Assembly (NCBI GenBank): GCA_016188625.1
Contig: JACPHL010000030.1
Coordinates: 1-9,828 of the forward strand
Reading direction: 5' to 3'
Length of the DNA stretch: 9,828 nucleotides
Source: Candidatus Rokuibacteriota bacterium
GTDB lineage: Bacteria; Methylomirabilota; Methylomirabilia; Rokubacteriales; JACPHL01
The notes under the pieces were generated by a model. That model worked only from the letters and a program-made list of their open reading frames with translations, was not told the DNA's origin and did not search any database. Below, piece after piece: positions 3,773 through 9,495 of the stretch (positions are counted from its first letter, which is position 1; each line of letters begins with the position of its first letter). A program made the position numbers and the translations under genes.

Positions 3773-4066
3773 CTAGGCCTTCTGGGCCTGCTCCTTCTCG
3801 TAGCGGGTCTTGAACTCCTTGTTCAGGTCCTCGATCCCGTCGATGTGCTTGATGGTACTCCAGGCGGCCCGGGCGGCCCCCCGCATGGCGTAGTAGAGCG
3901 CCTCCATGATCTCGTCATCGGTGGCACCGGCTTGCTTCGCGGCCGCGAAGCGCGCTGGCACTCAGGAGGTGCAGCCCGCCGCGGCCATGGCCGCCATGGC
4001 CACGAGCTGGCGGGTCTTCTCGTCCAGGACCTCTGGGTAGTGAATGCCAGCGAACTCTTTCAGCAT
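3773..4066 (-). CDS. AhpD-like / carboxymuconolactone decarboxylase-family protein, putative selenoprotein (CxxU)
   Basis: Read with UGA (3964-3962) as selenocysteine, this gene encodes 97 aa of the AhpD/CMD family, small helical thiol peroxidase-type reductases using a CxxC redox pair. Family features lie on both sides of the UGA: LDEKTRQLVAMAAMAAAGCTS before it and VPARFAAAKQAGATDDEIMEAL after it. They match the usual 'D-x-K-x-R-x-L-...-G-C-x-x-C-...-A-G-A-T-x-x-E-I-x-E-A' pattern. The UGA stands exactly where the second cysteine belongs, giving Cys32-Thr-Ser-Sec35. A strong hairpin follows (separate entry). ATG 4066 has AGGAGG (4080-4075) 8 nt upstream; an earlier ATG at 4168 overlaps the -10 box and adds an unrelated N-terminus. 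AhpD-like selenoproteins with CxxU are known in other bacteria. The alternative is a nonsense mutation or base error (UGC/UGU to UGA). Selenocysteine genes (selA, selB, selC, selD) cannot be checked here. Confidence 0.82.
3924..3961 (-). promoter_or_regulatory. Putative bacterial SECIS element directly after the UGA
   Basis: On the minus strand the 38 nt after the UGA can fold into one hairpin. The apical part is the perfect palindrome GCTTCGCGGCCGCGAAGC (3951-3934), a 7-bp stem with a GGCC loop. A lower stem pairs the first 8 nt after the UGA with 3931-3924, apart from one mismatch and a 2x2 internal loop. The loop begins 18 nt after the UGA and starts with G, in line with known bacterial SECIS features (loop roughly 16-37 nt from the UGA, G early in the loop). 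GC-rich coding DNA forms hairpins easily, so this supports but does not prove the case. Confidence 0.6.
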
Positions 4067-4163
4067 CGACGATTCCTCCTGACAGTCAGGTTCGGGTTCG
4101 GCCCTCCGGGGCGTCCGGTCCTCCCACCCCGGCAGGCAAGGGTGAAACAGCGCGCAGGTCGCT

Positions 4164-4268: not shown

Positions 4269-5784
4269 GTGCAGATCCCCCTGGACCGCGCCAGCCCGGT
4301 CTCGCTCTCGCGCCAGATCTCGCGCCATCTCGAGCGCCTGATCCAGACCGGGGTCCTCCAGCCAGGTCAAGCTCCCCGCCACCCGGGAGCTGGCCCGGAC
4401 CCTCGGGGTGAACCGGGCCACGGTCGCCACCGCCTACCAGACCCTGGTGGCGGAGGGGCTGGCCTCCGCCCACGTGGGGCAGGGGACCTTCGTCGCCCGC
4501 CGGGACGGGGGTTCGCTGGCCCCGCCGCCGGCCGAGCCGTTCCTCGACTGGGACGGGCACTCCTCCCGGGCCGCCCGCCGCCTGGTGGCCGATACCCGTC
4601 GGCGGAGCTCCTTCGACCTCCTGGCCCGCGCCCGTCCGGGTCTCATCTCCTTCGCGGGGGCGATGCCGGACGCGAGCCTCTTCCCCACGGACGCCTTCCG
4701 GCAGGTCCTGAACCGGGTCATCAAACGGGAGGGCGCCGCGCTCCTCCAGTACCACGCCGTCAGCGGCTACCCGCCCCTCAAGCGCTTTCTCATGGGCTGG
4801 CTCCTAAGGCACGGGATCGAGGCCACGGAGGACGAGATCCTGATCGTCAACGGCTCCCAGCAGGGGCTCGACCTGATCGTCCGGATCCTGCTCGACCCCG
4901 GCGACCCGGTGGCGATCGAGCAGCCGACCTACCCCGGGGCGCTCCAGACCCTGGAGGCCTTCCAGGCCCAGCTCCTCACCGTCCCCGTGGGTGAGGCCGG
5001 GCTCCGCCCCGAACCCCTGGCCCGGCTCCTCGACCAGCACCGCCCGAAGCTCCTCTACTGCCAGCCGACGGCCCAGACCCCCACCGGGCTCTCGATCCCC
5101 CAGGAGGCCCGCCTCGAGCTGATGGCGCTGGCGGCCCGTCGCCGGCTCCCCGTCGTGGAGGACGGGTTCGGGGGGCCGAGCTACCAGGAGACGCCGCCCC
5201 CGCCGCTCAAGGCCCTCGATCCCCACGGGCTCGTCATCCACCTCGGGAGCCTGTCCAAGATCCTCTTCCCGGGGTTGCGCCTGGGATGGATCGTGGCGTC
5301 CCGGCCGGTGATGGAGCGGCTGCTCGCCCTCAAGCAGCTCTCGGATCTCCACACGAGCGCGCTCCTGCAGGCGGCGGTCTTCCAGTTCTGCCAGCGCCGG
5401 CTGCTGGAGCGCCACACCCGGGTGGTCCGGGCCGAGTACGCCCGCCGCCGGGCCGCGCTGCTCGCCGCCCTCGGCCGGCACATGCCGGCGGGGACCTCCT
5501 GGACGGTGCCCGACGGCGGGTTCTCGCTCCTGGTCACCCTCCCCGGGCGGGTGGACACCGACGCCCTGCTCCCCGAGGCCGTGGAGCGCGGGGTGGCCTA
5601 CACCCCCGGGGCCTTCTTCTTCGCCGACGGCAGGGGGGCCTCGACCCTCCGCCTGAGCTTCTCCGGGATCCCGGCCCCCCGGATCGAGGAAGGGGTCCGG
5701 CGCCTGGCCGAGACCGCGCGCCCGGCGCTCCGGCGGCGGGCCCCGCGCGCGGTCGGGGAGCGGAGCGAGCTCCCCCTGGTCTAG
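4269..5784 (+). CDS. pdxR: MocR/PdxR-type regulator (GntR HTH + aminotransferase domain), frameshifted in the HTH
   Basis: The protein joins an N-terminal GntR winged helix to a fold-type I aminotransferase-like domain. GTG 4269 has AGGAG (4256-4260) 8 nt upstream and opens with PVSLSRQISRHLERLIQ and GVLQPG. The expected continuation KLPATRELARTLGVNRATV, then YQTLVAEGL and VGQGTFV, lies in another frame starting around 4369. Joining them as P-G-x-K-L-P needs two extra bases at 4365-4368; loss of two G from a GGGG run would explain it. The C-terminal domain has the PLP lysine in HLGSLSKILFPGLRLGW (4408-frame residue 284), ED(251-252)GFGGPSY, and QTPTG where many relatives have QNPTG. PdxR senses PLP and controls pdxST, which follow 86 nt downstream on the same strand rather than divergently. 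As written, only a product from GTG 4408, lacking the first HTH helices, would be made. A sequencing error and a real lesion cannot be told apart. Confidence 0.85.
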
Positions 5785-5870
5785 TGAAACTTCACGAGCT
5801 AAAGCAAAGCCGGGCAGGCGGTGTGCCGGGGATGCCCCGCCGGAGCGATGCCTGAAAGGAGGACAGGACG

Positions 5871-6758
5871 ATGGAGATCGGGACGTTGCGGTTGAAGGTC
5901 GGCCTCGCGGAGATGCTGAAGGGCGGGGTCATCATGGACGTGACCACGGCGGAGCAGGCCAAGATCGCCGAGGACGCCGGCGCGGTGGCGGTGATGGCCC
6001 TCGAGCGGGTCCCGGCGGACATCAGGGCGCAGGGTGGCGTGGCCCGGATGGCCTCGGTCCGGAGGATCAAGGAGATCATGGCCGCGGTCACCATCCCGGT
6101 CATGGCCAAGTGCCGGATCGGGCACTTCGCCGAGGCCCAGATCCTGGAGGCCCTGGGGGTGGACTACATCGACGAGTCGGAGGTCCTGACCCCGGCGGAC
6201 GAGCAGCACCACGTGGACAAGTTCGCCTTCAAGGTCCCCTTCGTCTGCGGGGCCCGCGACCTCGGCGAGGCCCTGCGCCGGATCGGCGAGGGCGCGGCGA
6301 TGATCCGCACCAAGGGGGAGGCCGGCTCGGGGAACATCGTCGAGGCCGTACGCCACATGCGGAAGGTCACAGGCCACATCAAGCGGCTGACCACGCTGGG
6401 GCCCGAGGAGCTGATGCACGAGGCCAAGGAGCTCGGGGCGCCGTACGAGCTGGTCCGCTGGGCGGCCCAGCACGGCCGGGTCCCGGTCCCGAACTTCGCG
6501 GCGGGAGGGATCGCCACCCCCGCGGACGCGTCGTTGATGATGCAGCTCGGCGCCGAGGCGGTCTTCGTCGGCTCGGGGATCTTCAAGTCCTCCGATCCGG
6601 AGCGGCGCGCGAAGGCGATCGTCCAGGCCACGACCCATTACAAGGACCCCGATGTCCTGGCCCGGGTCTCCGAGGAGCTGGGCGAGGGCGAGGCGATGCG
6701 CGGGATCGACACCTCGAAGCTGGCCGAGGAGGAGTTGCTCCAGACGCGGGGGTGGTGA
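5871..6758 (+). CDS. pdxS: Pyridoxal 5'-phosphate synthase subunit PdxS
   Basis: PdxS is the synthase subunit of the DXP-independent vitamin B6 pathway. It condenses ribose 5-phosphate, glyceraldehyde 3-phosphate and ammonia from PdxT into PLP in the cytosol, as a dodecamer decorated by PdxT. The 295-aa length is standard and conservation is high throughout. The (beta/alpha)8 barrel carries Asp23 in GGVIMDV and the two catalytic lysines, Lys80 in VMAKCRIGH and Lys148 in [11 protein letters not shown], matching Lys81 and Lys149 of the Bacillus enzyme. Other signatures are [32 protein letters not shown] and the phosphate-binding [16 protein letters not shown] 5871 has AAAGGAGG (5855-5862) with an 8-nt spacer, the strongest ribosome binding site in the locus, fitting a product needed in large amounts. 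pdxT starts 4 nt after the stop. Confidence 0.98.
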
Positions 6759-6762
6759 GGCC

Positions 6763-7347
6763 ATGCGGATCGGGGTGCTCGCCTTGCAGGGCGATTTCGC
6801 CCTCCACGCGGAGGCCCTCCGGCGGGTCGGCGTCGAAGCCGTGGAGGTGCGCAAGCCCGCCGAGCTCGAGGCCGTGGACGGCCTGATCATCCCGGGCGGG
6901 GAGAGCACGACCCTGCTCAAGCTCATGGAGGCCTGGGGGTTCGTCCCCGCGCTGGAGAAGTTCCACGCCCAGGGCCGGCCGATCTTCGGGACCTGCGCCG
7001 GGCTCATCGTGCTGGCGCGGGAGGTGCTGAACCCGCCCCAGTTCTCCCTCGGGTTGATCGACGTCACGGTCGAGCGGAACGCCTACGGCCGCCAGCGGGA
7101 GTCCTTCGAGACCGAGGGGGAGGCCGCGCTCGGCCGGGAACCCGTGCCGATCAAGATGGTCTTCATCCGCGCCCCCCGCATCCGCCGCGTCGGCCCGGCC
7201 GTGACCCCGCTGGCCGGGCACCGGGGCGAGTGCGTGATGGCGCGCGAGGGCTCGGTGCTGGCGGCCGCCTTCCACCCGGAGCTCACCGACGACCCCGCCG
7301 TCCACCGCTACTTCGCGGGGATGGTGGAGGCCGCTCACCCCTGCTGA
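6763..7347 (+). CDS. pdxT: Pyridoxal 5'-phosphate synthase glutaminase subunit PdxT
   Basis: PdxT is the class I glutamine amidotransferase partner of PdxS. It hydrolyses glutamine and channels ammonia into the PdxS barrel. The 194-aa length is typical. The nucleophile is Cys78 in FGTCAGLIVLA, and the triad is completed by His171 and Glu173 in AFHPELTDD. The N-terminal GVLALQGDFALH and the PGGESTT loop (44-50), both PdxT hallmarks, are intact, as is VFIRAPRI. ATG 6763 lies 4 nt after the pdxS stop with GGTGAGG close upstream, so the two are translated together, as expected for obligate partners. Nothing looks broken. Confidence 0.98.
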   Translation: MRIGVLALQGDFALHAEALRRVGVEAVEVRKPAELEAVDGLIIPGGESTTLLKLMEAWGFVPALEKFHAQGRPIFGTCAGLIVLAREVLNPPQFSLGLIDVTVERNAYGRQRESFETEGEAALGREPVPIKMVFIRAPRIRRVGPAVTPLAGHRGECVMAREGSVLAAAFHPELTDDPAVHRYFAGMVEAAHPC

Positions 7348-9025: not shown

Positions 9026-9495
9026 ATGCGGTACCTGGCTTCTGCGGTGATCCTGCTCTGTTTGAACCTGCTCAGCTACAGCTCGTGATCGGGAGCGTGA
9101 TCTTCACGCAGGAGATAGACGGGGTCAGGGTCGCCGTCGAGGCGTCCAACCTGCCCCCCTGGTTCCACGGCTTTCACATCCACGCGGTCGGCAAGTGCGA
9201 GCCGCCCTTCACCTCAGCCGGCGGACACTTCAACCCGGCCGGGCGTCCCCACCCGGTCCATGCCGGCGACCTGCCCAATCTCCTTGTGAACGACGGTGGG
9301 AAGGCGGCGATGGCGGTCAAGACCGCCCGCTTCGCGGTCAACGACCTGTTCGACGCCGACGGGAGCGCGGTCATCATTCACGCCGATCCCGACAACCACG
9401 CCAACAGCCCCAAGCGATACGGGACGCCCGATGATGCCACGCTCGCCACCGGGGATGCCGGGGGCCGGATCGGCTGCGGGGTGATCAGTCGATGA
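9026..9495 (+). CDS. sodC: Cu/Zn superoxide dismutase with frameshift between signal peptide and mature domain
   Basis: SodC dismutates superoxide outside the cytoplasm. The mature domain (frame from 9085) has HGFHIH and GGHFNP, then a short zinc loop HPVHAGDLPN, the DADGSAVIIHADPDNHANSP motif and GDAGGRIGCGVI. Numbered from 9085, the ligands are His31, His33, His48, His56, His59, Asp62 and His99, and the disulfide cysteines are Cys38 and Cys131. Only two residues separate His56 and His59; this short-loop form occurs in other bacterial SodC-like proteins. Upstream, ATG 9026 with GGGAGGAA (9013-9020) encodes a hydrophobic export signal, MRYLASAVILLCLNLLS, but that frame stops at TGA 9086-9088. 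The mature frame is offset by one base and has no good start: GTG 9085 lacks a ribosome binding site and would omit the signal and first strand. One missing base around 9058-9072 would rejoin them; some of the first beta hairpin may also be lost. Confidence 0.85.

Follow-up and report, generated by a model that had tools for sequence, protein, structure and literature searches.

The locus analyzed here raises the question of whether a single in-frame UGA on the minus strand ends translation or encodes selenocysteine (Sec), and what kind of protein would be made in the latter case. The window, that is, the whole stretch of 9828 nucleotides that was analyzed, forms contig 88 in a bin of 2.6 Mb, 84% complete, assigned to a Candidatus Rokuibacteriota bacterium. 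Judging from the sequence, we consider it highly probable (about 95%) that the frame running from 4066 to 3773 encodes a genuine selenoprotein with Sec at position 35. The features that bear on this reading are collected in Table 1.

Table 1. Predicted selenoprotein gene, associated signals and neighboring genes in the window
Feature	Position	Strand	Remarks
Ribosome-binding site AGGAGG	4075..4080	-	8 nt upstream of ATG; read directly
AhpD/CMD-like gene, predicted selenoprotein	3773..4066	-	97 codons including putative Sec35; TAG stop
In-frame UGA (predicted Sec, codon 35)	3962..3964	-	Second position of C32-T-S-U35
SECIS-like core hairpin GCTTCGC-GGCC-GCGAAGC	3934..3951	-	18 nt; begins 10 nt after UGA
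Outer hairpin extension (GUGCC...GGUGCC)	3924..3961	-	Imperfect; varies between sequences
pdxR (MocR-like), pdxS, pdxT	4408..7347	+	Divergent from the selenoprotein gene; conserved neighbors

The frame translates as MLKEFAGIHYPEVLDEKTRQLVAMAAMAAAGCTSUVPARFAAAKQAGATDDEIMEALYYAMRGAARAAWSTIKHIDGIEDLNKEFKTRYEKEQAQKA; of its 97 codons one, codon 35, is an internal TGA. The initial annotation had described a frame that passes from a well-placed ATG through a UGA at the second position of a CxxC motif to a normal stop, and all of this was reproduced; a Shine–Dalgarno-like AGGAGG stands ahead of the start. It had also foreseen that automatic annotation would cut the gene in two; a plain six-frame ORF scan indeed broke it into ORFs of 68 and 62 aa. 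The similarity to AhpD/CMD proteins, said to be continuous over the UGA, was recovered by the Pfam CMD model (PF02627) with 53 bits against a curated cut-off of 23. The AhpD core domain model TIGR00778 was passed as well (30.6 bits, cut-off 27.8); this general AhpD-domain model was the only NCBIfam model that was, the subfamily lying under every specific cut-off.

The AlphaFold2 model of the complete product (pLDDT 95, pTM 0.73) consists of four helices and two short strands, with U35 starting the helix of residues 35–45. Its best structural matches are CMD/AhpD proteins, namely 7y4r RclX (Z 9.8), 3bey (Z 9.7), 2ouw (Z 8.8), 1vke (Z 8.1) and M. tuberculosis AhpD, 1gu9 (Z 6.2), and Foldseek agrees in kind. 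Taken alone, these Z values are modest for a small helical protein, so that the assignment to the family is carried by the sequence matches.

The published relay of AhpD is formed by Glu118, Cys130, His132, Cys133 and His137 (PMC3141380). As in the Cys-type proteins M. tuberculosis AhpD and P. aeruginosa PA0269, a two-helix hairpin is predicted in which the catalytic pair, here C32-T-S-U35, starts the second helix (PMC3141380). Unlike in these proteins, Sec takes the place of Cys133, and, in an alignment with solved CMD proteins, Gln20 that of the relay Glu118 and Arg39 that of His137, four residues past the second Cys (the position being defined relative to CxxC). Arginine is found at position 39 in all 42 full-length orthologous sequences. 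It follows that the name "peroxidase" is unproven, since neither the Glu nor the His used by AhpD in catalysis is retained, and the statement of the initial annotation that Sec would raise peroxide reactivity at this site is unsupported as written. That the selenoprotein is also a true AhpD-type alkyl hydroperoxidase, as its CMD/AhpD fold and CxxU motif might suggest, therefore appears unlikely; moreover, an NCBIfam scan of ten window proteins revealed no AhpC.

We rather favor, with some reserve, a relay-less CxxU thiol/selenol oxidoreductase with a putative substrate and redox partner, which is likelier than a peroxidase. Cys32 and U35 would form a redox pair at the N-terminal end of one helix in the predicted fold, where the U35 selenolate probably attacks an oxidized substrate and is then resolved by C32 as a selenenyl-sulfide, presumably through a C32–U35 bond. 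By the general chemistry of selenocysteine, a selenolate would need no relay for its deprotonation, and the replacement of the Glu/His relay by Gln20 and Arg39 is plausibly due to this lack of need for a deprotonating base.

The decoding of the UGA itself was assessed on 59 genomes of the same order, among them that of the window, and on GTDB contigs. Some CMD/AhpD match was found in 58 of the 59 genomes, and 34 have an orthologue, each with an internal TGA and, outside the window, with 71–81% identity. Over both sources 67 loci were read, 44 of them distinct in sequence (61–81% protein identity to the window), and TGA occupies the codon in every one of the 44, invariably as TGAG. They come from Rokubacteria, NC10 (64% identity), a record labeled Nitrospinota (75%), a Tectomicrobia bacterium (62%) and the Olavius Delta 1 symbiont (L069, 64%), and most of the relatives that carry a name are Candidatus Rokubacteria / Methylomirabilota. 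No Cys orthologue was present among the 44 distinct sequences. The expectation that homologues would have Cys or UGA here was thus borne out for UGA in all orthologues, and for Cys only in distant relatives, i.e., CMD proteins with open frames and solved structures. Upstream of the TGA the ratio pN/pS is 0.23, and downstream it is 0.31; the latter value indicates that selection acts on the downstream half at the protein level.

These data bear on the view that the UGA is a real stop followed by a separate gene of 62 aa, starting from GTG at 3961. The GTG abuts the TGA here, as it does in most orthologues, and ORF callers would list such a gene; nevertheless, we regard this as very improbable, because the CMD domain is unbroken across the codon, both halves belong to one confidently predicted fold, and distant family members have Cys exactly at this point. 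Furthermore, GCA, GCC or GCG replaces the GTG in L069, L074 and L079, and there is no clear ribosome-binding site just upstream of it.

Still less probable is that the TGA arose by nonsense mutation in a pseudogene or by miscalling of TGC or TGT, a reading for which the fragmented and incomplete state of the bin could be cited. The codon recurs in all distinct orthologues, in independent assemblies and several phyla, and the relatives exhibit none of the further decay named by the initial annotation as a sign of a pseudogene. With TGA in every orthologue and purifying selection on both sides of it, the data agree neither with an error of sequencing nor with the decay of a pseudogene.

The presence of the Sec machinery, which the initial annotation had expected in the genome, was confirmed in full. 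In the same bin, contig C273 carries tRNA-Sec (75.7 bits, anticodon TCA) together with selA (600 bits) and selB (381 bits), and selD (396 bits) is found as well. It should be noted that selD (L105, G000:C179:1347-2267) contains one in-frame TGA of its own and is probably a selenoprotein gene itself. In two fairly complete relatives that have the TGA gene, G007 (G007:C82, L025) and G026 (G026:C53, L028), selA and selB were not found; one missing contig could probably explain each case, because the two genes are usually adjacent. Nearly all of the 59 genomes have the machinery, and the co-occurrence of the gene with selA and selB over the relatives is uninformative. A search of plasmid records gave no match. 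TGA terminates 7 of the 10 other genes checked in the window and is therefore an ordinary stop here, so that insertion of another amino acid, whether Trp by a changed code or a product of near-cognate readthrough, is as improbable as a pseudogene: no point in its favor was found, distant relatives have Cys at the position, and tRNA-Sec and SelB are both present.

The reading of the codon as Sec requires attention to the RNA downstream of it. The initial annotation had reported a foldable hairpin of 38 nt with a GGCC loop after the UGA, and the hairpin is indeed present, its core stem being invariant among orthologues and placed where a bacterial SECIS element would be expected. The loop begins 17 nt after the UGA and has G as its second base; with the outer part, the hairpin can be extended to about 38 nt, and the 57 nt from the UGA onward have a folding energy of −22.4 kcal/mol. 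Compared with a synonymous null, this energy is not unusual (of 2000 recodings, 46% match its stability); we therefore do not use energy as evidence and rely on conservation.

Throughout the family the core has the form GCTTCGC-GGCY-GCGAAGC, with GGCA as the loop in one sequence, and none of the seven stem pairs is altered in any of 29 distinct sequences. The codons within the stem are strongly biased, although the counts ignore shared ancestry: its two alanines are encoded by GCG in 84 of 84 cases versus 245 of 644 in the rest of the gene, and the glutamine at its end is encoded by CAA in 40 of 42 cases versus 8 of 60 in the rest. The mean synonymous divergence pS, which likewise ignores shared ancestry, amounts to 0.12 for the codons of the hairpin and to 0.44–0.46 in the flanks. 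As the stem never varies, no covariation is possible within the orthologue family. The pattern TGA-N10-GCTTCGC-N4-GCGAAGC has 35 matches in the 59 genomes; 34 of them fall in this gene and the remaining one in the UxxU paralogue described below, and the backwards control of the pattern has none in the same genomes. An Rfam scan of the region gave no match to a SECIS model, chance matches only. We propose that this short stem-loop, beginning 10 nt past the UGA, would recruit SelB with Sec-tRNA(Sec), and that the UGA would then be decoded as selenocysteine to give a mostly helical AhpD/CMD-fold protein of 97 residues.

Two paralogous families carry UGA as well. The UxxU paralogue (L086, G013:C330:6879-7121, plus strand), present in 1 of 95 genomes of the phylum, has two in-frame TGAs (GULPUSKNRFAVAKQSG), and the hairpin after the second, GCTTCGC-AGTT-GCGAAGC, has the same stem as the CxxU gene. 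In a phylum-wide search with this paralogue as query, matches appeared in further families of the class, only with TGA. UxxU entries are listed in a 2026 review for other protein families. In the NTHU family (L087–L099, several genomes of the order), the motif is GNTHU; Sec is retained and the first Cys of CxxU is replaced by Asn. Its hairpin, CCTGGC-AGGT-GCCAGG, differs in stem sequence from that of the CxxU gene. In both families the four-base loop keeps exactly the register to the UGA that it has in the CxxU gene, and its second base is G.

From this we draw a broader picture, which is tentative and somewhat less probable than not: a distinct subfamily of AhpD-like selenoproteins, always with Sec in the orthologues seen, may have dispensed with a Glu/His relay that selenium renders superfluous, and may have paralogues that include a double-Sec UxxU form and an NTHU form, with all of these forms relying on a minimal hairpin that holds its tetraloop at a constant distance from the UGA.

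With regard to the genomic neighborhood, most Rokubacteria loci (L016–L081) have a divergent pdxR homologue upstream of the gene, followed by pdxS-pdxT where the locus extends that far. SelA is a PLP enzyme. Elsewhere in the window, an ORF at 9085-9495 resembles Cu-Zn superoxide dismutase and matches SodC models below their cut-offs.

As the initial annotation stated, AhpD-like CxxU selenoproteins have been predicted before, having been catalogued for about twenty years. AhpD-like 1 (COG2128) and AhpD-like 2 (pfam02627), both with CxxU, were described from the Sargasso Sea and GOS surveys (PMC1088965, PMC2398784). Compared by description, the present gene shares CxxU with them and, with type 2, the same Pfam domain; unlike this gene, they come from marine metagenomes. 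Several AhpD/CMD forms with CxxU also appear in a 2026 review (PMC13188914), where the GSU3128 family is listed as a "distant AhpD homolog" with CxxU. The accessions given in reviews are AAR36519 for the distant AhpD homolog and MBW1767730 for a CMD-like CxxU protein. The corresponding NCBIfam model, GSU3128 family (seleno)protein (NF041047), is the best-scoring specific model for our protein (63.7 bits, E 1.3e-17), and its members likewise combine a small CMD/AhpD fold with CxxU. Unlike its members, however, our protein falls below the curated cut-off of 110 bits and aligns over residues 4–68 alone. The gene thus adds a member, and perhaps a new subfamily, to the known AhpD-like CxxU selenoproteins.

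For annotation, the gene is useful as one more case that automatic procedures would split in two. Work on SelB binding could take its hairpin, whose stem sequence is constant over several phyla, as a candidate minimal SECIS, and the CxxU, UxxU and NTHU forms make up a natural series for probing the role of selenium in the AhpD active site. With the recent description of one Methylomirabilota MAG in which 63 selenoprotein genes are predicted (PMC13188914), the selenoprotein richness of this phylum is already on record; the predicted subfamily, which has no NCBIfam model of its own, would enlarge the selenoproteome of the phylum.
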